IMG/VR virus record: IMGVR_UViG_3300030098_001484
Location: 1-64,000 of that record
DNA length: 64,000 bases
Source: a virus
Strand: one strand, 5' to 3'
Shown here: positions 4,424-59,416 of the stretch, piece by piece
Layout: the number at the start of each line of letters is the position of its first letter
How positions within the stretch are numbered: the first letter of the stretch is position 1
The notes under the pieces: model-generated
Databases searched by the model: none
What the model was told of the DNA's origin: nothing
Seen by the model: only the letters and a program-made list of their open reading frames with translations
Position numbers and translations under genes: made by a program

Positions 4424-4501
4424 AACCAATCCCCTTATTTGAAAGGTTATTTATTACGAGCCTTTTACTGACTTGCTCAGGTCAATACACAGTGTATTAA
4501 C

Positions 4502-8575: not shown

Positions 8576-8863
8576 CTAGTCGATTCTACGATCCTCGGCA
8601 TCTAGCTTACCCATACGCTCCCAATCAGGTTCCATCTCTTTCATGAGACGAATCATAGTCTCCAGACGGATGATACTGTTGTCCAAGGCACGGACACGAT
8701 CAATAAGCTTGACCACCATGCTCCAAAGACTGTTGAGCTTAGTAATCAAGATGTTCATCATCCATTTCATCATGCAATACATGAATAAGATCAAGATGAT
8801 TGCCATGAAGATTGGAAACCCAAGGGTCTCGATAAGATGTAAGAATTGTGTAACGTCTTCCAT
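8576..8863 (-). CDS. holin-like small membrane protein
   Basis: A 95-residue protein with one clear transmembrane helix at about residues 14-36 (LGFPIFMAIILILFMYCMMK). A long amphipathic, charged helix (about 45-85) with Arg/Asp/Glu heptads follows. One N-terminal membrane helix followed by a charged coiled-coil tail is typical of BhlA/UviB-type and class III-like phage holins. Its place after the internal virion genes and behind a candidate phage promoter fits late lysis. No endolysin gene is next to it; a GH24 domain lies at 28651-29874. The ATG at 8863 has AGGGGG ahead. Alternative: another inner-membrane phage protein. Confidence 0.5.
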   Translation of the reverse strand: MEDVTQFLHLIETLGFPIFMAIILILFMYCMMKWMMNILITKLNSLWSMVVKLIDRVRALDNSIIRLETMIRLMKEMEPDWERMGKLDAEDRRID

Positions 8864-9085: not shown

Positions 9086-12000
9086 CTAGGGGTTCTGAGG
9101 GCCGATTTTAAAGAAACTGTCCGGTAATCGAAGATACGTAGGCATCTCATAGATTGACTCGAATACATCAGTTTCCTTCTGCATTTCAAAGAACGGATTG
9201 AAGATAGGCTTCTCGGGTTTCTTGGCAGGGTTCTTATGCAGCGACTGTTGCATATACCGCTGTTTTTCCAAGGGGGTAGTGTTTGGGGTGTTCGATGGAA
9301 TTTTCGGCTGAAGACGCGGTGTAACGTGATCCTCGAAGTTCTGAAGGATAGTTTCTCTCCATACTCTCATAGCTTCGTCTGGCCTATTATTATCAATATC
9401 TTCTTTCATCATACTTGATAAAGCTAAGGCCAAGATTCTAGCTTGGTCCCGGTCATCAGGATTTACGTGATTAAAGAAGGCATCATTAATGGGAACCCAC
9501 CAGAATGCCTTGGTTGGGAACATGGCTTGATACAACAGATTGAAAGCATCACTAGCCTGAGCATCTCGCTCTCCAGACTTTAGGTCTCCCATTGTAGCAA
9601 TCCAGTCTTCCATGCCTACAGCTTTTGTAGCTTTGGTTCTGCCTTTTGTTAAGAAGTTGCCCTTACCCATACCTACCATTGCATTTGAGATCATCTTAAA
9701 TACGCCGGATGCTGGCATTTCTAGCGGATTGCTTCCATACGCAGGTTCACCTAACATTGGATTTACAACAGGTAAGACCGCCAGTTCTCTTACTATCTTA
9801 CTCCCCCATCCTAATACCGGAGCATGAGAACCCTTCTGGAATAGTTTAGCCCACCCATTTTCTTTCCATTCGGTTGCAATTTCTTCTGCTGATTTCTTAC
9901 CGGACTGAAGCTCCCTAACTTGCATATGTAACATCTCTAATGAAACAATACCTGCAATTAGAGCTAAGGCTTTTATGGCTCCTACTTCAGATGGATTCTT
10001 TTTCATATAAACATTAAAGAACGCTAAAGGATAAGTAGCATAGAAAGAGAATAATCTACCAAACCAATTCTTATTAAAGTGAGAATAAGAGGCTAATCCT
10101 CTCGGTTCTGGGGAAGCATCGTGAGCGTGCATTTCAATAAAGTTAATAAAACGATCAAACACATCCGTATACAGGTCTCTTTCTAACTTCCCAAACTGAT
10201 AATCAACGGAGTTCATTCGTTCAAACATAAGCGATTGATCCCAATTTGATTGGGTTGCTTCGCCCCATGTAAGAAGCTTTCTAACCATTGGCATCACATC
10301 TAGTCCACTGTCATCAACAACAAGCCCAGCCCTAAACCATCTCATCGCCATTTCATAGCTTAGTCCTTCTTTTCTAGCTAAGCCTTTAATGTATCGTCGT
10401 TTTGCTTTAGCGTCCGTTAGCGATTTAAATTTAATAGGATCAAATGCTAGATTAAACGCTTCAAGTTTATCTAAATTCTTAAGAGTATTATACTTAGCAT
10501 TACCAACCGCAATATTCTTAGTTAGGTTTATGACTTGGCGTAAGAACGTAAACTCTGATTGCATTTTAGCCGTGGCCTCTAAGAAATTATTAAGTTTTTC
10601 CATAGCTCCGTCTGTAGCGGTATACTTTCTATCTTTACTCCACATTAATTTCCAAAGGGATCTAATTCGATTACTCCATTTAATATCGTACTCTACTCGA
10701 TCATCATTCATAAACTTAGCTAAGCCAGATCTTTCAATGTTATCGAACATAAAGGCAGTACCCTCAAGATTGGTATTTAAGTTAGATGAAGATCTTGGGA
10801 TTCCCTTAAAGGCTGTACCTAAAGCATTCATTAACGCTCCAGCACTTCCTGATCTAGCAATAATAGCAAACGGTAATTCAACTAAAGCAACTGCTTGTGA
10901 AATACCGCTTCCAAAAATAGCCTGAGCAAGATTGTTCATTGCTTTTACTGCTGTATCAAATTTGATGTTTGCATCATATACAGGCGTTCCAATCATTTCC
11001 TTATAAAGCATTTCCATAAAATCGACAGTTTCTTCGAGTGCTTTTTTAGTGGCGTGATCAGCAATTTTCTTACCCTTTGGTCCGGCTATCTCGGTTAAGC
11101 TTGCAACCCTATCTCGCATTAAAGAAAAGACATCTTCAAACCGTAGGTTCTTAAGTTGTTCTCCGGTAAATGGAGAAGCAATTGCCATTGTTTGAAGCCA
11201 ATGATTTAATACATCTTGTGCATTAATTCTAGTTGCAGTAGTATTAGCGTAGTCCATAATAATCCGGTCCCACGACCAATCAAATTCTTTTAAGAATTCA
11301 GGATTATTTGCTAATTCTTCAGCAGAGAACACCCTTTCTTTTGATCCCATATTCGGTTGACCTATTTCATTTATGTACCTACGTTCTGCTCCAGCAACGT
11401 CTTGTCCAGCCTTAGAACCAGCAGCTTCGTGGTTTCTTCGCCTAGCCCAATTAATCATAGCTTCGTGTAATGCGGTTCGTTCTGGATTAATTCTTGCCCC
11501 CTTGGTATTTACATAATAACTAGTATCACCACCATAAGAAGCTTCTATTTTATCTCCAATAGAAATTGAATCCTCTGCTCCGCTATATTCAGCATTTAAG
11601 TTTTCTTCGCTAAATGTTTTAAATATTTCTGGCTTAGCCATAATAGGTTTAGTAGTATCAGGAGCTATAGCCTTAGCAGAAGTTTTTAACTCTTCAGGAG
11701 AGAACACTTGAATTTTACGACTCTTAGGTTTAAATACATTTGGTTCTCTTATTACAGAGATATCCAGAGCAGTCTTTGTCATAAATGGAGAACCTTCTTC
11801 AGTACCTACTCTAAATTGATTAGGTCCAAGCTTTTCTTGTAATTCATTAATAACCGCTGCTTCTCTTTGTTTAAGTTCTTTATATCGTTCAATGGATTCT
11901 TTATATAGCTGCCTCATTTTAAGAGTACGGGCTTGCATAGCCGAGTCTTGTTTAATAGGATTTCTTTCAACTGTAATTTGAGGATCCATCCACTGATCTT

Positions 12001-15000
12001 CAGCAGGCAATGTTTTATGAAGGTTTTCAATATCCCAAACTTCTTGCTTAATTGCTTGTAGCTCTTTAGCTAATGTTATGCTCTCAATAACAATTGGAGA
12101 ATCCTTTTGAGATCTTAGTTCTGCTATACGTGCATTGTAATCAGCTAACAGATAACCGGGAGACTTTAAACTCCACTCTCCCTTGGTATGATCCCACTGC
12201 TCTCTACCTTTCTTTTTACCCGCTTGTTTGACAACCTCTTGCTTTTTAGCTTCTAAGTAAGCAATCTTTTCATCAATTGTTTTATTCTTAACTTCAGGTG
12301 TTGGCTCAACTTTAGTAATTGTAATACCATGTAGTTCTTCTGCTCGTTCCCGACCTCTAGTTGTTAATCTCCAACCTCGTGCTGAACGATCATATTCAAT
12401 GAAGCCGGTCTTTTTTAAGTGCTGGAATAAATTGTTTTGATAAGAAGCTACATTTTTTCCAATATCATCGCTGTAAGTCTTTGGAGCAAAACGACTTATA
12501 GCTGGAATATCTTGTTTGGTAACGGGCTGAAAACTAGGATCAGCACTAACTAACGGCCTAATTTCCCCGAAGAATTGTTTAATAAAGTCAGCTTTAGTAA
12601 AGGTTGCATTTGTAGGATGGATTCTAAACCACTCAATAATATTTTTTTCTAGTGCCGTTTGAGGCTGGAATAATAAAGGCTTAGCAGGAACAAATACTTT
12701 TTTATCTTGATACTGTGTTAAGTTATCTAAAGCTTTCTTTAAGATACGTCTCTTATACATTAGAAGATTTCGAGTATAGTAATTACCTGTAGTAAATTCT
12801 TTTTTAAACGCCGGAACTCTATTATCGTTTGCGTAATTTTTAGAGAACCAATTAATTTTATTTACCATAGATGCAGAATCTCCAATATATCTCATTTGAG
12901 GTTCCATGAGTTGTTTATCTACAGTATTAAGTTCCTTAAGTAAAGAATCAAAAGGATTATCTACAAATCGGACAACTCCCTCAACAAACGTAGAATAAGC
13001 CTCCGCATAATTCTTGTAATGTCCTTGTAATAAAGATTCGGTTTCTTTCATGGTTTCGAACATAACTAAAGCTCTAAAGTTACCGATCATTGTGTCTTCT
13101 ACAATATCATTAACTTGCTGCTCAGTTAGTTCTTTATATTTTGGATTCTTCTTTTTCTTTTCAGCTTCTTCTTTTAAAAGTCTCTTTCTAATTTGTTCAG
13201 CAGATTCGCTTACAGAATCAATCATTCTTGTTAAAGTAGAGTAAGTTCCTTTAATATTTTTAATTACGTCTCTTTCGATTGCCCCTATTGTTAGGTGCGT
13301 AGCAAAGGTTACATATTCTACCTCTTTACCGTAATGACCGCCCTTACTGGTTGGCATATCATATGGTAACAATAGTTGCTTTTCAAGCTCTGCTAAACTT
13401 GAAATTGGCTTAACAAAAGTATAACCATCGTTTTCGTTTAAAGCTCTGTTTACCGATATCTTAGTAAACTTAGTTGGTCCTCCATCGGCTGCTCTTGGTT
13501 TCCACTCAGGATATAAAGGAATAATATCCTGAATGGGCTTAATAATTTTTACTCCCTCCCATTTAATGCTCTTTCCAAAAATACTATTTAAAGAAATTGC
13601 TCGTCTTCTAGACGGGAGGTTTAATTTAGATTCTCGTAATTCACTTTCATATATCGCTTCTCGTAATCGCTGAATCCAACGATTAATGTTTTCCCTTAGA
13701 ACCCGTACCTCTTGATCTCTATGCACAGGGCGGGAAATTCCAGTACGTCCGTCAGTTTTCATAGTTGTAGTATATAAATATTGCTTATTAATGGGTCTAT
13801 TAATAGAATCAAAATAACCAATTGCAGATGTATCTCCAGACTTAGCAATCTGTTCTTGAACATAGTTTGCATGCCAGTTCACAAGTTTTCTAACATCAAT
13901 TTCCTGTTCTTGTTTTAACTCTGCTCTACGTTGCTGTATGTCTTCGGCCCTAAACTTAAAGAAACTGTTAGGATTATCTTTCCATTTATTAGCACTTTCG
14001 TCCCACATGGCAGCGTCGGCATCGCCTTCAACAAGTAACTTAACCAAAAGATTAATTGAACGTCTTTCGTTTCGTTCTGCTGCACTTATACCTTTTTCAG
14101 TGGGATCAAAGAAATCTACTAACATTTTATTTAGACTTTGCCGTAACTCGTCATTTATCATCCTGTCTTCAGGACGCTCAGTTCGACTAGTCATTCGTGG
14201 CCTATCGGACACAGACATTCCTAATCTTTCGGCTTCTTCTGGGCTGATGCTAGATATTTTGCCCCTACCTATTTCAGAAGATCGTTTTCTTTTTCGGAAG
14301 GTTTCTTTGTATCCTGCCGCAACAGCGTACATAAAGCGACCTAATGGTACTTCTGAGTTGGCTCCAACACCGCCAAAGGTTTTGTCTTCTGACTTAAGCC
14401 TTCGAATTTTTCTCCACTTACCGTCCTCTCCCTTTTGTAATTTATGTGTAAACATTTCTCTACTAGCTCGGTGTAAAGCCATAGAGTCTTTAAATCCTAT
14501 AGAACTTGATAGTGGAAACTCTTTTATTAACTCTTCGGTTGTTAAGTCAATAAGCTTCTTAGGCTTACCTTTTTCATTCTTAACAATTTCTGATGTAGCC
14601 TTTTCAAACTGATCTTCAGTTAAATACCATAAACGCTTTAAGGCTGTAGGTTTACTGGTTGCTAACCAGAACAACTCTTCGAATACATCATCAAGTAAAT
14701 CTGCATCTACATCATGTCCTGCGGCTAACTCAGCACGGATAATAGAACTAATGCGTTGTTTAATGGCATATTCAATTCCCGGTTCGGTTTCCCATTCTTG
14801 TAAACCATACTTATCAGTTCTGCCCTTTTTACCCACAGCTTTTACTTTAGTTGCGTTTCTATTATATAAGAAGAATAAATCGCCAACAGTCATTGTTTCT
14901 TTGTTCTCAGCACCCGGAACAAAGTTGTAAAACTTATCATAAATATCGGCTTCATGCTTTGCTTCTTTAGCTTCTTTAGCTGCTATTTCTTTTTCAAGTG

Positions 15001-18000
15001 CTTTCTTTCGTAGTATTCGTTTTCTCTTACCGCCAAGATTAGCTGCCATTGCGGCTTGGTGCATGGTTAATTCAGCCGCTTCAGCTAGATGGAACTTTCC
15101 TGTTGTATCAAAACCAAATACGGAACCTTCGCCATCCAAGAGGTTTCTAAGCATTTCCAATCTTTTAATTTCCCAACGAAGCATTTCAATTTTTGGATGA
15201 TTAGGATCATTGATTCCAAGCTTTGTTCGTTTTTCATGTAAGGAATTTAATAGTTTTTGAAGTTCTTGTTGATACGCTCGACGGTTAGGATCTACAAACT
15301 TTTCTATTTCAATTAAAGTAACAATTTTATTCCACTGTCTTTCAATAGCTTTGGCCTTACCTTCAATAGGTTTGGCCCAATCCTTTTGAGCTATTTTACC
15401 GGGCTTTAATTGTTCCTTTCGTGTAATAGGAGAAATCCATCCTAAGTAAGATTCCATAACTTTAATCATTTTCTTAGCATTTTTTTGGATAGCAGGATGA
15501 GGAAGCTCAGCTTGTTTTTTATAAAACTCTAAAGTATTGCGTAATCTGGTTTCATTAATTAAAGTTGAATCGCCCTTTAATTTTAAAAGGTGTGGAGGAC
15601 CGTCTGTTAATTGAAGGATGCTAGGTAACATCTCTGCTTTCTTTTGTCTAACTTCCTTCCACAGTTTAACTCGTTGATCAACCACTGCTTTAAAGTCTCC
15701 GTCTCCGGTTAATAAAGCATACTCTTGCATCATAGTAAAGTATTCGTCTATATATGTTTTAACTTCTACTTCAACATCTTTAGATATAGTAAAGCGTCCT
15801 CGGCTTACATCACTTATTTCTTCTAAGATTCTCATTTCTTGATAGTTAAGGGCTGTTAGTTCTGCTTGGGTAGCTGTAGCATCTACGGCACTAGGCTGTT
15901 CAGTCCTAATAGCAGAATCTTCTAAGCTTTCTAGCTCTCTCTTGTGTTGTATAATTCTTTCGTCTAAATTAGCAACTGTTTTTGTAGCTAATGCTTGTGC
16001 TTCTTTAGCCTTTAATTGAGCTTGCTTTTTACCCATTGCTTTGTATTCTTTCTTAGAAATACCAAGAATTTTTCGAACTTGTTTCTTCGTAAGATCTGCT
16101 TCTTGTTTTTCGTGGGGTAACTCTGCAAGTACAGCATCAATGGTTTCATCTGTCTGTACAATTTCTATAGACGAATCATTGGGCTGATCTATTTCAGCTA
16201 CATCTTCAGGCTTGTCTACTTTCTGTTTCTTATATCCAATTGTAGGACCACGACGATAGACTTCATTTAAGTCTACATCAGTATCCCTTTCGTTTCTTAG
16301 CATAATATCATCAAGATTATCCCAAACCATGTCTGTTTCTAAGTCTGCTTTATATCCATCAATTTCGCCTTGAATATTGTCAGACCAAGCTGAAAACGGT
16401 TTATTATCTTTAGATGAATAATTACCATGCCAGATATCAATAAATGGATATCTTTCTTTAATTGCTCGTTCAATTGCAAGTCTAGTTATTCTTTGCTCTG
16501 GTTTGTTTTCCATAGCTGCATTTAAACTTGCATCAACCATAGCTTTTTTAATGGAGCCTATATCCGTTAGGATTTGCTGAGTAATGGTTTCTCCTCCTAC
16601 GGATACCCATCCCTCCGACAACCACGTTTGCATCTTTAGATTCCACTCTTCTGCATCATTAGCTTTCATCTCATTCCATTTTTTATTAACTTCTACTTCC
16701 TTACGATATTCTAAGAACAGTTCATTTCTTTCATCAAGGTCGAAGTAATTATGGTCTGGATAATATTTTTCAAGCCAGCTTTTGAAATGAGGAGAATCTG
16801 CGCCAGCTTCTGCTATAGCTTGTGTTAAGGCTTCATAATCTTCTGCTGAAGGATCGCCTGTTTTGTTTACTACATTTCTCCAACTTCTAAAATCTATATT
16901 TGCTTCTAACTCAGAGTTGGCTGCAACCGCCTTTAAAACATTTCGTCGATTGTAATCAGCCGCTTCTTTAATGGCTTCTCGAATTAAATGCACAACAATT
17001 TTAGAAACATCAAAATTATTAGCAGCACCTTCCGACACAATCTGTTTAAGCATGGCGTTGTTGTTAACAAAATTGATAATATCTAGAATAGATAAGCCAT
17101 TGTTTATAAACTCTTGTTCATTAATTCCCAACTCTCTTCGACCAACTTTTCTGCCAGTAAGAGCTTCTACTGTATCAAAGAGATGCTGCTCACCTACAGC
17201 ATAAAAGTCTTGTTCGGGGAACAGAGGATCTGGTTTATCTAGGTTTTTAGTAAACATTTCACCAATGTTTTCACCTTGTTCTCGACCAGTAAATGGTGTA
17301 ACTGTGGTTATTTCGTCTATTGGAATAGGTTTTTCTAATCCCTCAACCTTAATACTAATGATTGTTGGCTCAGGAATTAATCCTTGTTCTACGTCGTTTG
17401 CGGCTTCTCTCAGAGTAGTAGCTAATTCTAAGTTTCCTTCAGCTTCGTATCTATCCGCTGATGTGCGCATGTCATCAATGTTTCTAGTGGTAGCATAATC
17501 AGCGTTTTCGACAATACGTGCGTTTTCAAACAAAGGATTGTCTACATTGTGGATTACAACAGAACCAACATCAATAGGTTTATCAGGAGTTTCAACAAAA
17601 CCGGGAAACTCTAACCTATCGTGTGATACCTTTACGTTGGCTTTTACTGGGTTTCCATTAATTTCTAGTACATTGCCCTTGTGTTTAATTCCCGGCTCAA
17701 TAATATACGTAACTCTTGGTTCTCCTGAATCAGATAAATTCTTTGGAAATACTCTATTTCTTTCTGAAACAGACATTAACTCAGGATCAAACCTATCACC
17801 AACATTATCTATGAGTTCCATTTCATTCTTTGCTAAAAACTCATCTAATCTTTTTTGAATTTTTTCTTGTAGCTCTAACTCTAATGCTGCAAGAGTTTCG
17901 GTTTTTACCTTATTTTCAGGGGTTTTTGACTTAATTTTTTCTATGGCTTCAAGTTGGTTTCTTCTAATATTCCATAGAATCATAGCCGCAGTTCGCGTAT

Positions 18001-21000
18001 CTTCTAAACTAAATCGTCCTTCTCCATCAATAGGTTCTAGCCTATCAAAGTATTCATTAGCTGTCTTTTTTCTTCTTTCTAAGGTTTCAACAATAGGCGT
18101 AATAGGATCTACTTTTTGTTCTTTGATTAACGATAGTGGAGCGTCTTCTTTAGCAACAACAGGTAAACCTTTATTTTGTCGTTTATTATCTGCTGCTGCT
18201 TGAAGGGTACGTAAATCATCAGTTGTAAATCCGGTTTGATTATGATAATCCCACACCTGCTTTGACAGAGTAGCTTGGTTTATATCAGGACTATAGAAAA
18301 TAGATCCTTCAGGAATACCGCTAATACCTACTACAGAACCTTTCTCAGTTAATAAAGAAACATGACCGATTGCTTCAAGCTCAACAATAGAAACAAATCC
18401 TGATTCTAAATAACTGTTTGCTTTAATGTGGTTGCCTGCTGTTCCTAAGCTAATTACAGATTCAGGGTTATCGTTGATCATACTCTGAGATAATGGCACA
18501 TATCCTTCAGGATTACTGCTTTTAGTAAGCTGATTAGTGTCTACACCTCTTTGATAGTTTCTCATTAAGTAATCATCAATTTGAATAAAGACATCAGTAA
18601 AGTGTTGAGCAATAAGCTCCACATCTAAATGATCTATATTTCCCATTTCATTACCTAAAGCTTCTCTAACCCATTCTTTTATATTAGCTCTCTTAATTTT
18701 GTTTACTCTAGCTAATGCTATTAATTCTTCAAAGACCGGGAAAACTTCTTCCGGTAAGGCTTCTTTAGCTCTGTGTAAACGGGCCACAACAATCGAAGCT
18801 TCTCGTTTAGCTTTTTGTTTTGCGTGCCAAACACTTTGGTTTCGCCCTGTTGCGTTTAGATCATCAACTAAAAATTCGTGGGTATTATCTAAAATTCTAC
18901 CTAATGTTCTTAGTTCATATAAGGTAGAATAATAGACATCTGATTTACTAGAGCCTAGCTCAGCAACGGCAGAAACCATTCTGGTCAACTTAGAGCGTCG
19001 TAAAGCCTCGTCTAATACTTCAGCATTTTTAGCGTGGTTTCCTGTAGGATCTTGCATTCGCTTAAGGAGAGCAGAAAGAACTTCTTTACGTAGTTCTTGG
19101 CCTTCCATTGTTTCGTCTTGTATTCTCTTAACAAGCTTAGCGTCTGCTTCGTCTTGTAAAGCTTTCCTGCTTTTTGTGCTTTTTCTAGGATATGCTTTAT
19201 CCATTTCTTGTATCGCACTATCAACTAGTTTGTTTTGAGCGACAATCTCACTCATAGGAGTATCTCTAGTTTCTAAAAGCTTTAAGTTTTCAACTGCATC
19301 AAACAACTTAACTAACTCAGGTGTTGTGTAAGTATAGTCTCTAAATCTTAAACTAGGTGCTAAGTCTTCAGGGAACTTAGGAAAAGCTTCTCCACCATTT
19401 CCTTTTTCTAAAAAGTTAACTAAATCAGCTTCAGTTCGTTTGAATTTACGATAAGCCTCTCGAAACTTTTTACTGTCTACGCCATGCTTTTCTTTCATCT
19501 TTTCCGCTGTAGCTCTACGATTGTTTAATTTAGTTGTTAAGTTATTGTATCTTGTCCACGATTCTCTAGCTGCCACATCTGTAGGAGCAGCAGTATTAAA
19601 ATCTCTTGGCTTTGGAGTCGGAGATCGCAAGGAATCAACTTCGCTTACGGGTTTTAATAACCCTCTTTCTTCCATTGCGTGTTTTCCATCGGCGGTATTT
19701 CTAGCCTTTCTTTCAGCAGAAGACGCAATCTTATTACCGTTTTGCTTTTTCTTTAATTTAATAAAGGCCATAACTTCTTTTTCGATAACTTCACGATTTA
19801 CTTTATGACCACCAGAACGATAGTGTATATCTTTTAACAAGTTTGCAATTTCGTTTAAGGTAGAATGATGGCCTTCAATTAAGTTTCTATCTAAGAATCT
19901 AGCAAAAGCTTCTCCTTCTCCTCCAGTCATATGATCTACAAAAGAAGATACCGTAATCATACCATCTTCCCAACCCATATGAGAAACCAATCCTTCAAAG
20001 GTTCCGTCCATTGGAGAATCTGTAGATATTCCCGCCATATGTTTTAACTGATTTTGAACCCAATGAGGATGGTTAAAGCCTATTTTCTTAGCGTCTTTTA
20101 TTCCCTTAAAGATTTGACCTCCGAGAAACCCATCCATAAAACCAGTCATAGCAAAACCAAATCCACCCATTGTTCCCATTGTAAAAGCTAATTCGCCCAA
20201 ACTAAAACTATAATCGTGATTTCCTAGGCCATTTATAAAGTCTAATCTTTGTCTAGCATCTTCTTGTTGACGTAAGTTCATTCCTAAACCATACGCTGCA
20301 CCCCAACCAGCACCAACAGCGGAGCGTCCAGCTAATCCACCTAAAGTTTTAGCACCCTTCATAAAGGCTAAAACTTCTAAAGTTTCTCCGACTGCGACCA
20401 TTGGATAACCCAGCATTTTATTTATAAATGCTTGTGATTTAATTTGTGTATTAGTTAAAGTTGCTAATCGAGAATCCTTAACAAACCTAGCTCCCCAGAC
20501 TCCTTGTTTAGTATTAAACAAAGTGGGTATTAATGAACCGTCTGCCATTAAAGCTTTAGTATCTTTTAAACTTAAAGCAACATCGTCTCCTGTTTTAGAA
20601 ATACCAGAAGCCGGTCCCTTCCAACCCTTAGTTCTTGTAGCCCGAGTTGCAACTAATTGCCACTGATTTTTAGGATTACCAAATCCACCCCACAAACGAG
20701 GATTTAATTTTCTTCTTAAGGGTACGCCCATATGGCGACGAACTCCTTGGGTAACAAACTTTCCAGATGTTTGGGCTAAATCTATTACTTCTCCGGTGGT
20801 TCTATGAATTAATCTTGGATTAACGTACTGACCTTTTTGAGCGGCTTGAAGAAATTTACTTAGTCTAGCGGTTTGTTCTGTGCTTTTTAATAAAGCTTGT
20901 CCACCCGTTTTGGTTACTGCACCTACTCCCGCTAATCCGAAAGTTAAGGGAATAGTAGCATAAAGCTCCCAATCCATTCCCATATCAAATATCATATCTC

Positions 21001-21745
21001 CCCACCAATCAGCGGTTTCAGATGTTTTACCGGCTTCTCTCATTTGCATATCATATCGAGTTTTACGCATCATTTCTAAAGACGTATCTAATACATGACG
21101 ATTAACCCAATATAAATAATCGTTTTTATTGGCTGCTCCTTTGCCCCACTCTTGAGGATTAATTCCCTGCTGTTCTAAGTATTCCCTTATAAGGTCTGCT
21201 TCAATCTTGTTTCCTCGTCTTTTAGGAAAAGCTTCATCTAACGCAGTAATCCATCCATCAGTCTTATAGTCAAATGTAGGGTCTAAACCATCATGCATGG
21301 CATCAATACGGCTCCAATCTGTATTTAAAAACCATTCTAGATCGTCGCCCAATCCCTCAAACTTCATTGTACCCGAGTATCCTCCAGCCGTAGCAGGAGT
21401 TAAACCGGCCAAAGATTCATGGAACTCAACGGAATATGGGTTAGCTCCGAGCATTCCTGACATATATTGAGGCTGTGATCTTAGGTTTAACCATCGCCAA
21501 TAATCATTCATATCTTCAGTACTAAAAATTTCTGGAGGAAGGATGCCTCTATGAAAGTCCCAGTCAAGTCCAGAACGAACAGAGAAATCTCCTTCTTTGT
21601 TTATATTCATTACAGGAATAGGCCAAAGAGTTTTTTCTGCTTCTTCTTTTGTCGCTTGTATATAATCAACGCGATTAACTACTGGAATAGGCTTCCGCGT
21701 TAAGGTTCTTTCATAATCTCTAAAGCTTCCTAATGGATATTCCAT
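9086..21745 (-). CDS. giant internal virion (DNA ejection) protein, 4219 aa
   Basis: One uninterrupted reading frame of 4219 codons, about 470 kDa. From position and character it corresponds to the largest ejection protein of T7-type podoviruses (T7 gp16, 1318 aa), but it is over three times longer. Visible features are a hydrophobic segment at about 259-280, a Gly/Ala-rich hydrophobic zone at about 500-590, very long charged helical regions through the middle, a winged-helix-like patch around residue 3020-3110, and hydrophobic helices in the last quarter (about 3530-3570 and 3860-3890). I found no lytic transglycosylase motif and no RNA polymerase motif. Its ATG overlaps the upstream stop (TAATG) with AGGAG ahead. 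It is AT-rich compared with the capsid gene. Its likely role is forming the channel across the cell envelope during genome ejection. Confidence 0.8.
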   Translation of the reverse strand: MEYPLGSFRDYERTLTRKPIPVVNRVDYIQATKEEAEKTLWPIPVMNINKEGDFSVRSGLDWDFHRGILPPEIFSTEDMNDYWRWLNLRSQPQYMSGMLGANPYSVEFHESLAGLTPATAGGYSGTMKFEGLGDDLEWFLNTDWSRIDAMHDGLDPTFDYKTDGWITALDEAFPKRRGNKIEADLIREYLEQQGINPQEWGKGAANKNDYLYWVNRHVLDTSLEMMRKTRYDMQMREAGKTSETADWWGDMIFDMGMDWELYATIPLTFGLAGVGAVTKTGGQALLKSTEQTARLSKFLQAAQKGQYVNPRLIHRTTGEVIDLAQTSGKFVTQGVRRHMGVPLRRKLNPRLWGGFGNPKNQWQLVATRATRTKGWKGPASGISKTGDDVALSLKDTKALMADGSLIPTLFNTKQGVWGARFVKDSRLATLTNTQIKSQAFINKMLGYPMVAVGETLEVLAFMKGAKTLGGLAGRSAVGAGWGAAYGLGMNLRQQEDARQRLDFINGLGNHDYSFSLGELAFTMGTMGGFGFAMTGFMDGFLGGQIFKGIKDAKKIGFNHPHWVQNQLKHMAGISTDSPMDGTFEGLVSHMGWEDGMITVSSFVDHMTGGEGEAFARFLDRNLIEGHHSTLNEIANLLKDIHYRSGGHKVNREVIEKEVMAFIKLKKKQNGNKIASSAERKARNTADGKHAMEERGLLKPVSEVDSLRSPTPKPRDFNTAAPTDVAARESWTRYNNLTTKLNNRRATAEKMKEKHGVDSKKFREAYRKFKRTEADLVNFLEKGNGGEAFPKFPEDLAPSLRFRDYTYTTPELVKLFDAVENLKLLETRDTPMSEIVAQNKLVDSAIQEMDKAYPRKSTKSRKALQDEADAKLVKRIQDETMEGQELRKEVLSALLKRMQDPTGNHAKNAEVLDEALRRSKLTRMVSAVAELGSSKSDVYYSTLYELRTLGRILDNTHEFLVDDLNATGRNQSVWHAKQKAKREASIVVARLHRAKEALPEEVFPVFEELIALARVNKIKRANIKEWVREALGNEMGNIDHLDVELIAQHFTDVFIQIDDYLMRNYQRGVDTNQLTKSSNPEGYVPLSQSMINDNPESVISLGTAGNHIKANSYLESGFVSIVELEAIGHVSLLTEKGSVVGISGIPEGSIFYSPDINQATLSKQVWDYHNQTGFTTDDLRTLQAAADNKRQNKGLPVVAKEDAPLSLIKEQKVDPITPIVETLERRKKTANEYFDRLEPIDGEGRFSLEDTRTAAMILWNIRRNQLEAIEKIKSKTPENKVKTETLAALELELQEKIQKRLDEFLAKNEMELIDNVGDRFDPELMSVSERNRVFPKNLSDSGEPRVTYIIEPGIKHKGNVLEINGNPVKANVKVSHDRLEFPGFVETPDKPIDVGSVVIHNVDNPLFENARIVENADYATTRNIDDMRTSADRYEAEGNLELATTLREAANDVEQGLIPEPTIISIKVEGLEKPIPIDEITTVTPFTGREQGENIGEMFTKNLDKPDPLFPEQDFYAVGEQHLFDTVEALTGRKVGRRELGINEQEFINNGLSILDIINFVNNNAMLKQIVSEGAANNFDVSKIVVHLIREAIKEAADYNRRNVLKAVAANSELEANIDFRSWRNVVNKTGDPSAEDYEALTQAIAEAGADSPHFKSWLEKYYPDHNYFDLDERNELFLEYRKEVEVNKKWNEMKANDAEEWNLKMQTWLSEGWVSVGGETITQQILTDIGSIKKAMVDASLNAAMENKPEQRITRLAIERAIKERYPFIDIWHGNYSSKDNKPFSAWSDNIQGEIDGYKADLETDMVWDNLDDIMLRNERDTDVDLNEVYRRGPTIGYKKQKVDKPEDVAEIDQPNDSSIEIVQTDETIDAVLAELPHEKQEADLTKKQVRKILGISKKEYKAMGKKQAQLKAKEAQALATKTVANLDERIIQHKRELESLEDSAIRTEQPSAVDATATQAELTALNYQEMRILEEISDVSRGRFTISKDVEVEVKTYIDEYFTMMQEYALLTGDGDFKAVVDQRVKLWKEVRQKKAEMLPSILQLTDGPPHLLKLKGDSTLINETRLRNTLEFYKKQAELPHPAIQKNAKKMIKVMESYLGWISPITRKEQLKPGKIAQKDWAKPIEGKAKAIERQWNKIVTLIEIEKFVDPNRRAYQQELQKLLNSLHEKRTKLGINDPNHPKIEMLRWEIKRLEMLRNLLDGEGSVFGFDTTGKFHLAEAAELTMHQAAMAANLGGKRKRILRKKALEKEIAAKEAKEAKHEADIYDKFYNFVPGAENKETMTVGDLFFLYNRNATKVKAVGKKGRTDKYGLQEWETEPGIEYAIKQRISSIIRAELAAGHDVDADLLDDVFEELFWLATSKPTALKRLWYLTEDQFEKATSEIVKNEKGKPKKLIDLTTEELIKEFPLSSSIGFKDSMALHRASREMFTHKLQKGEDGKWRKIRRLKSEDKTFGGVGANSEVPLGRFMYAVAAGYKETFRKRKRSSEIGRGKISSISPEEAERLGMSVSDRPRMTSRTERPEDRMINDELRQSLNKMLVDFFDPTEKGISAAERNERRSINLLVKLLVEGDADAAMWDESANKWKDNPNSFFKFRAEDIQQRRAELKQEQEIDVRKLVNWHANYVQEQIAKSGDTSAIGYFDSINRPINKQYLYTTTMKTDGRTGISRPVHRDQEVRVLRENINRWIQRLREAIYESELRESKLNLPSRRRAISLNSIFGKSIKWEGVKIIKPIQDIIPLYPEWKPRAADGGPTKFTKISVNRALNENDGYTFVKPISSLAELEKQLLLPYDMPTSKGGHYGKEVEYVTFATHLTIGAIERDVIKNIKGTYSTLTRMIDSVSESAEQIRKRLLKEEAEKKKKNPKYKELTEQQVNDIVEDTMIGNFRALVMFETMKETESLLQGHYKNYAEAYSTFVEGVVRFVDNPFDSLLKELNTVDKQLMEPQMRYIGDSASMVNKINWFSKNYANDNRVPAFKKEFTTGNYYTRNLLMYKRRILKKALDNLTQYQDKKVFVPAKPLLFQPQTALEKNIIEWFRIHPTNATFTKADFIKQFFGEIRPLVSADPSFQPVTKQDIPAISRFAPKTYSDDIGKNVASYQNNLFQHLKKTGFIEYDRSARGWRLTTRGRERAEELHGITITKVEPTPEVKNKTIDEKIAYLEAKKQEVVKQAGKKKGREQWDHTKGEWSLKSPGYLLADYNARIAELRSQKDSPIVIESITLAKELQAIKQEVWDIENLHKTLPAEDQWMDPQITVERNPIKQDSAMQARTLKMRQLYKESIERYKELKQREAAVINELQEKLGPNQFRVGTEEGSPFMTKTALDISVIREPNVFKPKSRKIQVFSPEELKTSAKAIAPDTTKPIMAKPEIFKTFSEENLNAEYSGAEDSISIGDKIEASYGGDTSYYVNTKGARINPERTALHEAMINWARRRNHEAAGSKAGQDVAGAERRYINEIGQPNMGSKERVFSAEELANNPEFLKEFDWSWDRIIMDYANTTATRINAQDVLNHWLQTMAIASPFTGEQLKNLRFEDVFSLMRDRVASLTEIAGPKGKKIADHATKKALEETVDFMEMLYKEMIGTPVYDANIKFDTAVKAMNNLAQAIFGSGISQAVALVELPFAIIARSGSAGALMNALGTAFKGIPRSSSNLNTNLEGTAFMFDNIERSGLAKFMNDDRVEYDIKWSNRIRSLWKLMWSKDRKYTATDGAMEKLNNFLEATAKMQSEFTFLRQVINLTKNIAVGNAKYNTLKNLDKLEAFNLAFDPIKFKSLTDAKAKRRYIKGLARKEGLSYEMAMRWFRAGLVVDDSGLDVMPMVRKLLTWGEATQSNWDQSLMFERMNSVDYQFGKLERDLYTDVFDRFINFIEMHAHDASPEPRGLASYSHFNKNWFGRLFSFYATYPLAFFNVYMKKNPSEVGAIKALALIAGIVSLEMLHMQVRELQSGKKSAEEIATEWKENGWAKLFQKGSHAPVLGWGSKIVRELAVLPVVNPMLGEPAYGSNPLEMPASGVFKMISNAMVGMGKGNFLTKGRTKATKAVGMEDWIATMGDLKSGERDAQASDAFNLLYQAMFPTKAFWWVPINDAFFNHVNPDDRDQARILALALSSMMKEDIDNNRPDEAMRVWRETILQNFEDHVTPRLQPKIPSNTPNTTPLEKQRYMQQSLHKNPAKKPEKPIFNPFFEMQKETDVFESIYEMPTYLRLPDSFFKIGPQNP

Positions 21746-24700
21746 TATTTATTCTCCTGCATTGAAAGTATAAATTTGTGAGAAAATATAGTTTGCCACT
21801 TTTCTCGTCCGCTTAGTCGTCCAATTTGCGGATTTTTTCTAGCTTGTACAACTAAAACATACTGATTAATATCATTATCCCAGTGCATTATATATTTAAG
21901 TTCTTTATCCCAAGTAGTACCCGAATCTCTTTCTGTAAGTTGAGAAAGAGTAGCGGGAGAATGGGTAATGTTTTTCGCGTTTCTGACAATACCACCAGTT
22001 TGATGAATTACAAACGATTCTTTATTTTGTAGTTTATTTTGTATAGATGAACTATTAGGAATAGCAATATTAAGCCATTTTCTATGGGCAAAGCGACCTT
22101 TAACAAACTTTTCTTCTCCCGTAGGAGAGTAATAAAACCTTAAGTTTTTACCTGCATATTCTTCTGGTTGTAAATATTCCATAGGCGTAACAATATTTTT
22201 ATTATCTGCGGTATCATCTAAGGTAAAAGCTGGAATACCTAAAGAACGAATTTCGTGTTGTCTTGTATATGGGTTCCATTGTATGTCTTTTTTAAAATAG
22301 ATATTATCGAAACCTAGATCATCCCAACTTTTCCACTCATTTCCTATTTTAACCTGTAGTTCAACAGGATTACCCTTAAACGCATCAGCCCAAGGTCCAG
22401 CGTTGTTCTTATTTCTATATAGACCATACTCTGGATTTTCAGCAAGATGTACTGGGATAGGCATAAATCTAAAATCTCCTGCCCCAAAGGATTTATCGGT
22501 TCGTTGAATATAGTCTAAAAGTGCTGGATCAGCACCAAACGGAATTGTAAAGTCTAGCTGATTCATACTATACTCTACTACATCAAGTTGGGTAACAACG
22601 CGATTATCCTTTTCTCTTTCTGCAATAAACTCCCAAAATTGCCTATTAGGTGTTTGGTCAGTAATAGTAACATAATCTCGAACTACATCAGCATATGAAT
22701 AGTCTGTATCAATTGTTAAAGATCTATGCATATTATATGGGGAATATGGTCCGCGATCAACAGCATCTTGTAGGGGTTGCCAGAATTTTTGTCTTAATGC
22801 AGAAGGCATTAGTCGATCTAAATTTAAGTCCATCCAGTTTCCTGAATTATCAAATGCTCCTAAAACAGAATACTCTTCAAATATTCTTTCCATTTTAATA
22901 TCTAATCCGGCTTGACGAATAGCTTTAGCTGGATTATCTGGATTATTTTGATAGGTTTCATAGAACGAAATAGCATCTGGACTTAAAAACCACATTTGTT
23001 CAAACTTTGAACCCGACAAACCAGACACATCGTTTGGATCAGTAATTCGCATAGTTTCATAGTGTCTTAATATATCGTCATACACGTTTTCGAGTGCATT
23101 ATCAAGCATCCCATAATTATTTGTTCTAACTGCGTCTTGCCGTAACTGTCTAAGTGTTCTAGTTAAAGGAACTTTAGATAGGGGTTCAGGAGCAAACTCA
23201 GGAGGATTAGATCCCAAGGTTCCTTGCTTTGTATCTAATACAGATTCCCATACTAAATCCCTACGTTCTTCAGGAATATTATTAAAAGATTTTCCGGTAG
23301 ATACGCCAAGACGACTTTCTGCTTTTTCGATTGCACTGGTTAATAAGCTTAGTTCAGTGCGTAATCCATCCATAATTTCTTCTCTATTAGAAGCATTGGT
23401 TTGGTTAGCCCATTCTAATAAACTATCTGCTAATTCCCGTGGTCGTGTAAATTCTCTGGTTGCCCTATTTAAATCAACTCTTTCAAGAAGACTATTAAGG
23501 GTTTGCATGGCATCGTCATATACAGCGGCTTCCAGAAAATCTACGTTTTCCCATCCAGTAGCCCAACCTCGTTCAACCTGTGTTCCTTGTTCGGTTACTT
23601 TCATTGTATCATATGATGGATGCCATTCGGCTCCGAAAGCCCGAGCAAGATCCCATACTTTACGAAGGCCAGTTGCATTTGGATCTACTTTAATATTTGC
23701 ATTAAACCATGCTCTTTCTTGATGGGTATGTGTGATATATGTTTCAATACGCTCAAGGGTTTCTTCTGCTTTTTGAATTTCTTGTTCTTCTTCTGGAGTA
23801 TAAGGCTCAGCAATACCCGGTTCTCGTTTAATTCTTATTGCTTGTTTTAATTCTCTAACTTTGCTTTGAAGTTCTTTAGATTGTTCTGGTTTTAATATTT
23901 CGATTCCTTCTCCCGTAGCAATTTGAGCTAATGTGTAAGCCATCTTAAAATTATTATCTTGTTTAGCTGCTTCTTGTGGAGTTAAGTATGGCCGTACCCA
24001 TTGATAATCATCTACGGCTCTATCAATATCTTGAGCTAAACTAAATAATTCTGGATTAGTTTGTAAACTTGTCGTAAAGTTATCGGGATATAATGATGTT
24101 CGGATTGCCATTCGTTCTAACCACTCAGGCAAAGCTTCATCTAATAGTTCGGGAGTATGCGGATAACCTAATCTTTTTAGTTCTTCATCTACGTTAAAGG
24201 TAGGATCTTCTTCTCCTCTTGCAATAATCGAATCATATAATTCTTTGTCTGCTCTAAGAATATCGGGGTTGGTAACGGTTCTTTGGCTATTATTAGTATA
24301 GCTCCTAACAACAACCCTTCCTTCTTCTTCATAAGTTTGTCTATCTATTTCTCTTTGATCTTTTCGTTCATTAACTATGTTTATATAGCGAGCTAAATAA
24401 GACGGTTGGGGAACATTAGGGTCTGGAAATGATTCTGGATCTGCTAATGTAATAGGAGATTGAACACTTGTTTGATTCATTTGATGCATACTTCTTTCGT
24501 TATAAGAAAACTGAGTTTGTCCTCCTATTCCCGGCAATCTTCGAACTAATTGTAAGTTTTTTGGGCCTACTATTTCGAACCTATAGTTGTTAGAAAAAGC
24601 TTTTAACGCTCCTTGTACAGTGCTTGCGTCAAACTCTACACTAATTCCCGCTGCTTCTAAAATGTCAGGATCGGCTAGTTGCTGTCCAATATTATCTCTT

Positions 24701-27700
24701 ACGGCTGGATTAATAGCTTGTTCTATTACAATTCGAAGATCTTCAGGAGTTAGCATATTAGCTAAGATATCAAATGAATCTTCGCCTAAAAGTGCATCTG
24801 TGTCAATTTCTGTCTGTTCTCTAAGTAAATCTAGATTAATCATTAACCCCTCTCCTTCAGCATTAGGAGATAATAAATATCTAGCGGTTACGTCTGCTGC
24901 ATTAGCTTTTGCTAGTTCTAATTGACCCTCAACCGTAGTCGGTGCTTTTTTGTCGTTTAGAAATAATCGTTTTAATCTTGCTTCATATTCTGTATCCGTT
25001 AATCTATTATCAACTTCTGTAGAAGCTTGACCCCACAATGGATTAATTTTTTCTTTTGGATCTTGTTGACTAGGGTTTTGAATACGGTAAGGACGGCCTA
25101 AATCGTTTGTAGCTCTTTGATAATTAGATTCTAAATATAATTCTAAAAACCTTCCAAACTTTTGGTGGTCTTTATTTTCGCTGGTAGATAAAGATCTAAT
25201 AATTAAATCAGCATCGGGTATATTAATCTTTGCAAAAACATTAGTCATCCAGTAATCTAAATATGCAGAACTATCGCTATCAACTCCAGTATTTGTAGCC
25301 CATGCTATCGGTGCAAGAAGATGTCCGTTTTTAATTTTGATGTCGCCAGTTGTACCATCGTTTAAAACATTAATTTGTCTTTCTGATTGAGCCGCTAACC
25401 AACTTTGGGTCGTAGGAATATTATCTATTTGTCCGGCCCTAGTTATTACATCTAGGTTAATAATGCCTTTCGCATATTCTTCCATATCTGTTTCGTTTAA
25501 ATTAATTTCGTTTCGTTGTGTATTAATAGGGTTTGTTCGGCTTGCGCCTATAGATTGATTATGTCTTTGAGTAATAGGTTTTTGTGCGCTGTTCATAAAA
25601 TTATTAAATGCAGTATAGGCTATACTATCGTGAGCTACGTTCCTGTAAAAGTACTGCCCTTTAATTTTAAACTCCCAAACTAATTCTGGTTTTAACCCTG
25701 AAAAATCTAACTGCTGATTGATTCTGGCCCATCTATTTGGATTTGAAACTGCCGAAGGTACAACCAATTTAACCCCTTCTCTAGGTATTGATATGGTATC
25801 TACACCGCTTTCTAATAATGGGTTAGGTACGTTTAAAGAAGAAGGAATAGTATCTTCAGGTAATATCATCATTAAGGATGTAAATGTATCGTCCCAATTA
25901 ATTTTATCCATAATTTGTGGTAAAATTTCCTCGGAACTAAAACTTGAAAGAGATCCCTGTCTTACCATTGTATCAATAATGTTACTTGATCCATTCTCAA
26001 TATTTCTTTGCAGGGTTTGACGAACATGAGATTTATAACTTTCTGTTATACCTTCTAATGCTCTTTCATAATATTTAGTATAGATTGTTGCTCGTCGGTC
26101 TTCGTCTACAATTAGTCCGCCTTGATGAAGCTCTAACGAAGTTTGATACTGAGCTAATGCCGCTGCCGTTGCAGGTATTTCTTCGCGTAAAGCATAGTCA
26201 ATTAAAGACGAGTCTTTGTTATCTGGTATGTACTGCTCATTCAATAAACCAGCCACATCGTTTCTGACGTTATTAAATATTCGATTACCAATATTTTTAT
26301 AGAAATCTTCTAAGTGCTTATTAGAGGCAGCAAAAATAATTTCTCTAGACTTAGGTAAATGTAATGAATTAGATAATGCCCCTAGTTCCGTAGTTAACTC
26401 ATTGGCCGCAACTAGCTGTCCGTTAGATAAGGATTCAAAAAATGAAGGCGTTAGTGTTTCTATTTTTGTGCTTGTAGTTGAATCTTGCTCTCCCTTCCAC
26501 CTAAAGTTTAATAAGGGAAGAATAGTTTGTTTAACTGAGTCTTGAAATAGTTCTGTTAATGAGACATCCTTACCTAACGAGGTGTAGTCTTCTGTTATAG
26601 GTAACTGACTATCGCCTAATAAATTAGTTGCTTCAAAGGTAATATATTCGGCTAATGTTTGTGGATTAAATGAGGAAGCAAAGTCTGTTGCATCTTCAGG
26701 AATAATCCCTGCCCGCCTTGCTTCTTCGAGATTTCCGCTTAAATTCACCATAGTTTGTTGAACTATGGATTCTAAAATAGAAGGGTCTTGTGGTCCTGCA
26801 CTAGCTGTAATTTCTCTAACCCATTTTTTAACTGTCTCTATTTCAGCTTTCTGCATCATGCCGAATTTTCTATCGGACCATCCATTAATACTTTCTAAAA
26901 ATGTACCGTCATTAGCCCATGACGGATTGTGTCTATATGCAGTATTAACTAAAGCTTTAACTGTATCGTTCCAATCTTCTTCCGTTAATTGGGGAAGTTG
27001 GCTCATTTTTTCTAAGGTTACATTAAATAAAGACTTAAAAGATTCTTTAGTTAGGTTGTTTCCAATAGCATCTAATACAAATTTATTTCGTGATTTAATT
27101 AAAGCAGCCGGTCCTCTACGGGATTCCATAGCAACCTCAACATTTCCAAAATGAGAATCATACCAATCAAGTTGTTTTTTCTTACTCCAGTGTGTAGGCC
27201 ACGAAGAAGAGGAAGGGTTAAATCCCAATCTTTTAGCCAATGCTTTTGAAACATGATCTTCTAATTTTGTATCAGAATATCTCCAATCTGGTTTTTGCTC
27301 AGTACCATAGTTACGCCAAGTTTTAGCCTCTCCTGATAAAAAGTCTTCTATTTCTTGAGCAGTAATGTTTGGCCCTAAATCTAAATCCTTAACCTTTAAT
27401 ATATCCTTAGCCCTTTGATCGGCCCATATCTGTTGCTGATCATATCCAGCCGCTATTCCCTCTTCAATAAGACGCTCATCTTTTCTCTGGAATCCTTTTT
27501 CCTTTAAAACAATTAGCTCACCTACTTTTGTGGCAAATTCAAATCCTGAGCTTATAAAGTCTTTTACATCTCCTGCAACATTAGGAACATTTTGTCCAGC
27601 TTTTTCTACAAGATTAGGATCCCAATATTGTCTTTGTGTACTTATTGTTCCTGATCTACCAAATCCCTCAAGGTTTCTAATTACCGGATCAGCTATTTGC

Positions 27701-27816
27701 TGTCTTCCCGACAGTTCCTCTAACAGTTCCATACCTTGTTGTAAGTCTGTTTCAAAACCTTGTAGACCGCTTGATCGCTTTTGTGAGCGTCTATTGTTGT
27801 CTGGAATAAGTACCAT
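21745..27816 (-). CDS. large internal virion protein, 2023 aa (gp15-like)
   Basis: A 2023-residue hydrophilic protein with no signal peptide or clear membrane segment, predicted largely helical and rich in Asn, Gln, Glu and Leu. It lies between a small virion protein and the 4219-residue protein, the order of T7 genes 14-15-16. It is therefore likely the gp15-type ejection protein that forms the periplasmic tunnel, though T7 gp15 has only 747 residues. The ATG at 27816 has a strong GGAGG. The stop codon is shared with the next start, so the two giants are probably translationally coupled in a fixed ratio. No enzymatic motif was identified. Low GC as in its neighbours. Confidence 0.75.
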   Translation of the reverse strand: MVLIPDNNRRSQKRSSGLQGFETDLQQGMELLEELSGRQQIADPVIRNLEGFGRSGTISTQRQYWDPNLVEKAGQNVPNVAGDVKDFISSGFEFATKVGELIVLKEKGFQRKDERLIEEGIAAGYDQQQIWADQRAKDILKVKDLDLGPNITAQEIEDFLSGEAKTWRNYGTEQKPDWRYSDTKLEDHVSKALAKRLGFNPSSSSWPTHWSKKKQLDWYDSHFGNVEVAMESRRGPAALIKSRNKFVLDAIGNNLTKESFKSLFNVTLEKMSQLPQLTEEDWNDTVKALVNTAYRHNPSWANDGTFLESINGWSDRKFGMMQKAEIETVKKWVREITASAGPQDPSILESIVQQTMVNLSGNLEEARRAGIIPEDATDFASSFNPQTLAEYITFEATNLLGDSQLPITEDYTSLGKDVSLTELFQDSVKQTILPLLNFRWKGEQDSTTSTKIETLTPSFFESLSNGQLVAANELTTELGALSNSLHLPKSREIIFAASNKHLEDFYKNIGNRIFNNVRNDVAGLLNEQYIPDNKDSSLIDYALREEIPATAAALAQYQTSLELHQGGLIVDEDRRATIYTKYYERALEGITESYKSHVRQTLQRNIENGSSNIIDTMVRQGSLSSFSSEEILPQIMDKINWDDTFTSLMMILPEDTIPSSLNVPNPLLESGVDTISIPREGVKLVVPSAVSNPNRWARINQQLDFSGLKPELVWEFKIKGQYFYRNVAHDSIAYTAFNNFMNSAQKPITQRHNQSIGASRTNPINTQRNEINLNETDMEEYAKGIINLDVITRAGQIDNIPTTQSWLAAQSERQINVLNDGTTGDIKIKNGHLLAPIAWATNTGVDSDSSAYLDYWMTNVFAKINIPDADLIIRSLSTSENKDHQKFGRFLELYLESNYQRATNDLGRPYRIQNPSQQDPKEKINPLWGQASTEVDNRLTDTEYEARLKRLFLNDKKAPTTVEGQLELAKANAADVTARYLLSPNAEGEGLMINLDLLREQTEIDTDALLGEDSFDILANMLTPEDLRIVIEQAINPAVRDNIGQQLADPDILEAAGISVEFDASTVQGALKAFSNNYRFEIVGPKNLQLVRRLPGIGGQTQFSYNERSMHQMNQTSVQSPITLADPESFPDPNVPQPSYLARYINIVNERKDQREIDRQTYEEEGRVVVRSYTNNSQRTVTNPDILRADKELYDSIIARGEEDPTFNVDEELKRLGYPHTPELLDEALPEWLERMAIRTSLYPDNFTTSLQTNPELFSLAQDIDRAVDDYQWVRPYLTPQEAAKQDNNFKMAYTLAQIATGEGIEILKPEQSKELQSKVRELKQAIRIKREPGIAEPYTPEEEQEIQKAEETLERIETYITHTHQERAWFNANIKVDPNATGLRKVWDLARAFGAEWHPSYDTMKVTEQGTQVERGWATGWENVDFLEAAVYDDAMQTLNSLLERVDLNRATREFTRPRELADSLLEWANQTNASNREEIMDGLRTELSLLTSAIEKAESRLGVSTGKSFNNIPEERRDLVWESVLDTKQGTLGSNPPEFAPEPLSKVPLTRTLRQLRQDAVRTNNYGMLDNALENVYDDILRHYETMRITDPNDVSGLSGSKFEQMWFLSPDAISFYETYQNNPDNPAKAIRQAGLDIKMERIFEEYSVLGAFDNSGNWMDLNLDRLMPSALRQKFWQPLQDAVDRGPYSPYNMHRSLTIDTDYSYADVVRDYVTITDQTPNRQFWEFIAEREKDNRVVTQLDVVEYSMNQLDFTIPFGADPALLDYIQRTDKSFGAGDFRFMPIPVHLAENPEYGLYRNKNNAGPWADAFKGNPVELQVKIGNEWKSWDDLGFDNIYFKKDIQWNPYTRQHEIRSLGIPAFTLDDTADNKNIVTPMEYLQPEEYAGKNLRFYYSPTGEEKFVKGRFAHRKWLNIAIPNSSSIQNKLQNKESFVIHQTGGIVRNAKNITHSPATLSQLTERDSGTTWDKELKYIMHWDNDINQYVLVVQARKNPQIGRLSGREKWQTIFSHKFILSMQENK

Positions 27817-27828
27817 TTAAAACCTCCA

Positions 27829-28647
27829 CTACCAAGTAGTCATTTGCTCTGCACCGGCCATCATTTCTAATTCACCGATAGTATTTACCATGTTTAATCC
27901 TTCTGTGGCCCCACTTAAACCTGCCGTAGCATAATCTAAGAAATTGTTTCCGGGTGTCCCAACATTTTGGGGTGGTTGAGAAGGTACAAAATATGATGGC
28001 ATATTATAACTGAATAAGTCTCTCTTAGCAAGGATTCCCTCATAAGCTTTTTGAATATTTTGACGTTCTGTATGATCGTTAATTTTAATAGCCTGAAGTG
28101 TTGCTCCTGCGTTAGCTTTAAACTGTTCCTTTAATGCCTTATATGTTCCGCTATTTGTTGATAATCCAGATCCTGTAGATGCTGCCGCAAGTTTTCCCAT
28201 ACTGGATTTGTATCCTTGGTTAATTTGTCGAAGCTTTGAACCAGTATCTTTTTGAAGCTGATGTCGAGCAGTACTTCTATATTCTTGTGCGGCTCTGCCT
28301 ATTTCTCTGTTCTGTCTAAACCTAGCTTGATTCATCCTAGTAATTTCTAGGTTTTTCAGCAGGTTTTTTACCGAACCATCTAAAACTTCCCAGTTTCTAT
28401 TAGACATATTTTGAGCAAACTGTACTTGTTGCATATATCTTTGCTTGGCTTCGTCTGCTCTTTTTTGGAATATACTTAGTATTCCCATACCAGCCGTCAA
28501 TGCAAATTGCCCTACTCCTAACATATTACCTAATCCTCCTGCTGCTCCTCCTCCTGAAGTTGCAGCACTAATAGCTGACGATGTTTCTGACATAGCACTG
28601 CCCATTATAGCTTGACTTGCAAACATAGCTGTTGATGATGGCAACAT
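27829..28647 (-). CDS. internal virion protein, gp14-like (272 aa)
   Basis: A 272-residue protein with an Ala/Gly/Ser-rich, mildly hydrophobic N-terminus (about residues 5-58, with a possible membrane helix at about 36-56). A long Gln/Arg-rich helical region (about 60-200; GRAAQEYRSTARHQLQKDTG) and a Pro/Gly-rich end follow. This pattern and its place directly before two very large ejection proteins match the smallest T7-type internal virion protein (gp14), which inserts in the outer membrane during infection. The ATG at 28647 has a GGGGGG-type ribosome-binding site. Assignment is by pattern and synteny. Confidence 0.68.
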   Translation of the reverse strand: MLPSSTAMFASQAIMGSAMSETSSAISAATSGGGAAGGLGNMLGVGQFALTAGMGILSIFQKRADEAKQRYMQQVQFAQNMSNRNWEVLDGSVKNLLKNLEITRMNQARFRQNREIGRAAQEYRSTARHQLQKDTGSKLRQINQGYKSSMGKLAAASTGSGLSTNSGTYKALKEQFKANAGATLQAIKINDHTERQNIQKAYEGILAKRDLFSYNMPSYFVPSQPPQNVGTPGNNFLDYATAGLSGATEGLNMVNTIGELEMMAGAEQMTTW

Positions 28648-59321: not shown

Positions 59322-59339
59322 ATTAAAGTATCCTCTTAA

Positions 59340-59412
59340 TGGGCCGAGCCAGATTCGAACTGGCGACCTAACGATTATGAGTCGTCTGCTCTAACCGCTG
59401 AGCTACCGGCCC
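59340..59412 (-). tRNA. tRNA-Ile2 (anticodon CAT, probable lysidine type)
   Basis: Cloverleaf on the minus strand: acceptor GGGCCGG/TCGGCCC, anticodon stem GACGA/TCGTT with loop CTCATAA, T-arm GCCAG-TTCGAAT-CTGGC, discriminator A, no encoded CCA. Anticodon CAT could mean Met or Ile2. The sequence around the anticodon arm and variable loop (GACTCATAATCG then GGTCGC) is close to the bacterial AUA-reading tRNA-Ile, so Ile2 modified by host TilS is most likely. AUA codons are frequent in AT-rich phage genes. Confidence 0.93.
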
Positions 59413-59416
59413 ATAA

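Follow-up and report, generated by a model that had tools for sequence, protein, structure and literature searches.

The giant gene and its module

On the minus strand of the window, by which we mean the whole stretch of 64,000 nucleotides analysed (positions 1 to 64,000 of a 66,999-bp IMG/VR virus record), the gene for the terminase large subunit (TerL) is followed by four genes in the order lysozyme-type, gp14-like, gp15-like and giant, the giant being the last and largest gene:

29877..31562, minus strand: TerL of the T7 type, used as context marker (phrog_38, E 1e-94; Pfam Terminase-T7_RNaseH-like, 5.8e-32)
28651..29874, minus strand: 407-aa protein without cysteine, phage-lysozyme-like domain at residues ~234-403 (phrog_7 endolysin, E 3.4e-5)
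27829..28647, minus strand: gp14-like protein, 272 aa, without cysteine (homologues adjoin TerL in 15 of 15 other clade contigs compared)
21745..27816, minus strand: protein in gp15 position, 2023 aa, without cysteine
9086..21745, minus strand: giant protein in gp16 position, 4219 aa, without cysteine (open reading frame, orthologue and cysteine count)

The clade was defined by a scan with a TerL alignment, which yielded 39 loci (50-97% identical), and its long contigs show the same kind of module order.

The intact frame of 4219 residues, which had been reported in a preliminary description of this DNA, was confirmed together with its coordinates: it lies on the minus strand, starts with an ATG at 21745, ends at 9086 and contains zero internal stop codons. 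The last base of the 2023-aa gene is at the same time the first base of the giant gene, and this one-base overlap bears out the proposed coupling of the two genes. The GC content of the giant gene lies at 0.35-0.40 for most of the frame and rises to 0.45 in the last ~220 codons, and a self-comparison of the protein revealed no internal repeats. A complete and colinear orthologue of 4649 aa, 59% identical to the window giant along the aligned length, is encoded by a contig from another sample (L001), and the C-terminal 2060 aa of a giant in contig L002 are 99.9% identical to the L001 protein. Such an orthologue means that the giant is neither a chance frame nor an assembly fusion. As further contigs also carry giants in the same slot, an artefact (chance frame, frameshift fusion or misassembly) is refuted as the origin of the gene and retains practically no probability.

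The first 99 bp of the window recur as a direct repeat at positions 66901-66999 of the record (50-base probes, both ends), which suggests a closed assembly and hence a nearly complete genome. Its T7-type genes encode RNA polymerase (RNAP), TerL, portal, scaffold, capsid and two tail tubular proteins (gp11/gp12-type), and a primase-helicase and a DNA polymerase gene are also present. All marks of a T7-like podovirus (RNAP, terminase, portal, capsid and tail tubular proteins) were thus found. There are two different T7-type RNAP genes, one for a protein of 710 aa (window 2297-4429, minus strand) and one for a protein of 819 aa (L003 1205-3664, minus strand). Both proteins match phrog_414, and one of the two holds 14 cysteines. 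The 710-aa RNAP shares 61% identity with an RNAP of contig G002; its matches in seven further long contigs of the clade are all weak and fall in frames of 812-836 aa or, in G006, of 385 aa. Directly 3′ of the giant, positions 8576-8863 (minus strand) encode a possible holin of 95 aa, which has a hydrophobic stretch close to the N-terminus. Genes for tRNA-Arg, tRNA-Met and tRNA-Leu lie at 575-649, 59339-59413 and 59417-59489 (minus strand).

The operon order gp14-gp15-gp16 has been described together with a size plasticity of gp16 between 609 and 1337 aa (PMC8954989). Like T7 gp16 (internal virion protein D) and its counterparts in the Autographiviridae, the window giant is encoded at the end of a module of the gp14-gp15-gp16 type in a T7-type phage. 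However, it has 4219 aa in comparison to the 1318 aa of T7 gp16, a ratio of 3.2 that agrees with the more than threefold size stated at the outset, and it lies far outside the published range. A further difference is the location of the module, which in T7 is found between gp12 and the fibre gene, whereas it follows TerL in the window. Comparison of the giant with T7-type gp16 profiles gave E-values of 0.05-0.9, like those of reversed controls, with the positive control (T7 versus BB8) reaching 6.3e-10.

The gp14-like genes beside TerL form a single homologous cluster in 16 of 16 loci compared, and the L029 member of this cluster has a match to phrog_418 "internal virion protein" (E 2.9e-5). 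As phrog_418 differs from phrog_805, the family of T7 gp14 itself, this match backs the kind of protein, but not orthology to T7 gp14. The 2023-aa protein is regarded as the gp15 counterpart because of its position and size. Searches of the named families in Pfam, PHROGs and NCBIfam returned nothing convincing for the 272-, 2023- and 4219-aa proteins, and the two larger ones had no match in the PDB.

The N-terminal peptidoglycan hydrolase of gp16-type proteins is phage-specific and absent in P22-like ones. In the window giant no family match (PHROGs, Pfam) to an N-terminal transglycosylase or peptidoglycan hydrolase was found, and the lysozyme-like domain resides in a separate gene of the module. 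The match of this 407-aa protein to Pfam Phage_lysozyme (E 0.025) is below the family cut-off. The domain likewise lies in a separate protein in L014 (583 aa, 11656-13407), while in L033 (4312-8730) it forms the end of the gp15-position protein, with L029 and L044 in the same cluster.

Cysteine exclusion from the module

The four module proteins contain no cysteine in 6921 residues. The rest of the genome (40 other window genes counted) has 144 cysteines in 11,966 residues, from which ~83 would be expected in the module proteins; the other virion proteins counted have 24 in 4711. For the giant alone, a simple Poisson estimate predicts 51 cysteines at the rate of the other genes or 21 at that of the other virion proteins. 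Cysteine is also absent from T7 gp15, from N4 gp50, gp51 and gp52 and from the gp16s of seven out of seven phages examined (T7, HTVC200P, a Limnohabitans phage, BB8, ICP3, Lepni01 and Cornix), a count that includes related and hence not independent proteins. The gp14 proteins of T7 and BB8 have one cysteine each. At the clade loci, cysteine-free open reading frames of at least 1000 aa lie within the ejection module, and frames of this size that have more than two cysteines are found outside it. Absence of cysteine is not confined to ejection proteins, since it is also seen in the N4 capsid protein (401 aa) and in some small proteins. The otherwise cysteine-free stretch after TerL in L014 is interrupted by a 347-aa protein (14075-15118) that contains 13 cysteines.

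We suppose, as our own reading of these counts, that passage through the oxidising periplasm may be the reason for this exclusion. A limited search of the open literature found no paper that states cysteine exclusion as a mark of ejection proteins. It looks like a simple sequence mark that could find such proteins where homology fails.

These counts also bear on the question whether the giant could remain inside the head as an internal scaffold or core protein. The gene lies in the late region with virion genes around it, which would suit such a role, and ejection itself is something that we infer. Yet the exclusion of cysteine matches the ejected proteins of T7 and N4, even if the cysteine-free N4 capsid protein weakens this argument, and a retained core protein appears improbable.

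Relatives of the giant and their domains

TerL is ~60-74% identical between the window phage and the clade phages with giants. Complete giants in the same slot have 4728 (G005), 4675 (G006), 4559 (G010), 5012 (G013) and 4172 aa (G016 and G017). Four more are truncated by the edge of the analysed stretch; three of them reach at least 4304-4330 aa and the fourth at least 3620 aa. In G016 and G017 (L055 303-16253 and L056 2408-19477) the 4172-aa giant is preceded by a protein of 1138 or 1511 aa, which clusters with the N-termini of other clade giants, as if the gene had been split in two. A tblastn search of 50,697 isolate phage genomes gave no match to the two big proteins or their relatives, and no relative was found in the genome contigs searched. 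The clade consists of largely uncharted environmental phages, whose gp16 equivalents reach 4000-5000 residues almost without cysteine.

The giants of this uncultured clade (IMG/VR contigs L001, L050-L063 and L085) share with the window giant not only the slot and a size of 4172-5012 aa, but also a C-terminal domain:

9644..11326, minus strand: C-terminal domain, residues ~3474-4034, common to the clade giants (hhalign Prob 95.9, E 5.5e-9 against 8 clade proteins)
9779..10063, minus strand: most conserved motif, residues 3895-3989 (LFSFYATYPLAFF.. in the window giant, LFEIYRRYPxLFVSQ.. in the clade; hmmsearch i-E 3.1e-5, profile built from seven clade giants)

Reversed controls of the profile-profile comparison gave E-values of 0.17 or worse. 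A full-length profile comparison was weaker and covered the motif only (hhalign E 2.6e-4), and BLASTP against the giant in L062 (M062) aligned residues 3896-4047 (E 7.6e-7); all of these E-values refer to very small databases or single pairs. Outside the C-terminal ~560 residues the window giant has no convincing similarity to most of the clade, the exceptions being the close orthologues in L001 and L002. The body of the giant turns over much faster than TerL.

An AlphaFold model of the C-terminal 800 aa of the window giant, made from two sequences, was discarded (pLDDT 33). The C-terminal domain of the L058 giant, modelled from 11 sequences including that of the window, was predicted to be mostly helical at low confidence (pLDDT 52.6). 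Among viral models, the best match to this low-confidence model (E 1.5e-7) was to part of an unnamed phage protein, and two of the first nine matches bear the name internal (virion) protein D (with probabilities of 0.69 and 0.92 and a low TM-score), which is suggestive only. A fold search of the PDB with the same model returned no significant match; a phage core protein in row 47 (Z 2.9) was too weak to use.

Unlike the window giant, most clade giants carry an HExxH motif. In eight relatives (G005, G006, G010, G013 and the giants in L058, L062, L063 and L085) its surroundings are conserved, a glutamate follows downstream, and the motif lies 1414-1469 residues before the protein end. The domain of G016 (E 2.4e-28) reads AEELVH at this site and so lacks the first histidine. 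The 5012-aa giant in L054 has a second HExxH at residue 1160 besides the one at 3562. The domain appears metalloprotease-like, and in a one-to-one comparison it is weakly similar to that of the N4 virion RNA polymerase (vRNAP; hhalign E 5.8e-5). Neither the motif nor a profile match is found in the window giant and its sister in L001, and a profile comparison revealed no degenerate version of the domain in the window giant. Extra enzymatic domains, as initially considered, are a feature of the relatives, but not of the window giant, in which no polymerase, effector or other catalytic domain was recognised (Pfam, PHROGs, NCBIfam, PDB). The absence of any transglycosylase or polymerase motif, noted at the start, was upheld.

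Probable ejection, possible payload and modularity

N4 gp50, the vRNAP of a member of the Schitoviridae, has an HExxH subdomain followed by a long helical part of ~1100 residues (PMC12633501, PMC5512222). It is a gp16 analogue of 3500 aa, cysteine-free and ejected, and the clade relatives resemble it by their HExxH domain and the long C-terminal part behind it. The window giant might in this light be an N4-like virion polymerase which is ejected to start early transcription. However, it has neither a polymerase family match nor the HExxH domain, and the two separate T7-type RNAP genes of this genome also argue against such a function. Moreover, the N4 C-terminal region has no profile match to the window giant and, within the clade, matches the neighbourhood of HExxH only, without significant similarity between the C-terminal regions. 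An N4-like polymerase is strongly disfavoured.

Polyvalent phage proteins, which are injected and multidomain, offer a second comparison (Iyer et al. 2017, PMC5512222). The giant could be packaged and injected mainly for the delivery of effectors (protease, counter-defence or host takeover) and have little role in a channel. It is very long and probably injected like these proteins, most of its relatives have the HExxH domain with weak similarity to that of N4 vRNAP, and its body evolves fast. Polyvalent proteins have at least two recognisable domains of different activity, whereas the family searches recognised none in the window giant, although remote ones may exist. It also occupies the place of gp16 in the module, which makes some channel role likely. 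A mere payload is consequently rather unlikely, albeit the most serious of these alternatives.

By far the likeliest reading is that the giant is the gp16-equivalent, i.e., the largest, ejection protein of a T7-like phage, gp16 being meant here by module position and not by demonstrated descent. This follows from the module context, the conservation of the slot throughout the clade, the internal-virion-protein match and the cysteine exclusion; it does not rest on size. The extended ejection machine that had been proposed stands as an enlarged T7-type module, given the gene order, the cysteine exclusion, the gp14-like match in the clade and the clade-wide conservation. For its proposed adaptation to a thick envelope nothing was found either way.

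Virion location, ejection, channel formation and the role of each domain are what we infer for such a machine. The head would contain packaged copies of the giant together with those of the 2023-aa gp15-like and the 272-aa gp14-like proteins. At infection, these proteins would exit via the tail, unfolded or bead-like, and traverse the oxidising periplasm, where the separate lysozyme-type protein would open the peptidoglycan. They would then refold into a trans-envelope channel, with the giant reaching the inner membrane or the cytoplasm. The conserved ~560-residue C-terminal domain would probably dock into the core or the membrane, and the fast-evolving body of ~3400 residues may enlarge the channel or carry payload.

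As a more tentative idea, it is possible that this clade has made gp16 modular: a conserved C-terminal docking domain would be joined to an exchangeable, nearly cysteine-free cargo of ~3400-4400 residues destined for passage through the tail, and most lineages, though not that of the window, would also have a protease-like processing domain. This clade may then harbour some of the largest proteins that phages eject. The four module genes take up ~20.8 kb, or ~31% of the record, compared to ~17% for gp14-16 in T7. If the giants are ejected, chains of ~470 kDa would have to pass a narrow tail channel, which would put models of protein translocation to the test.
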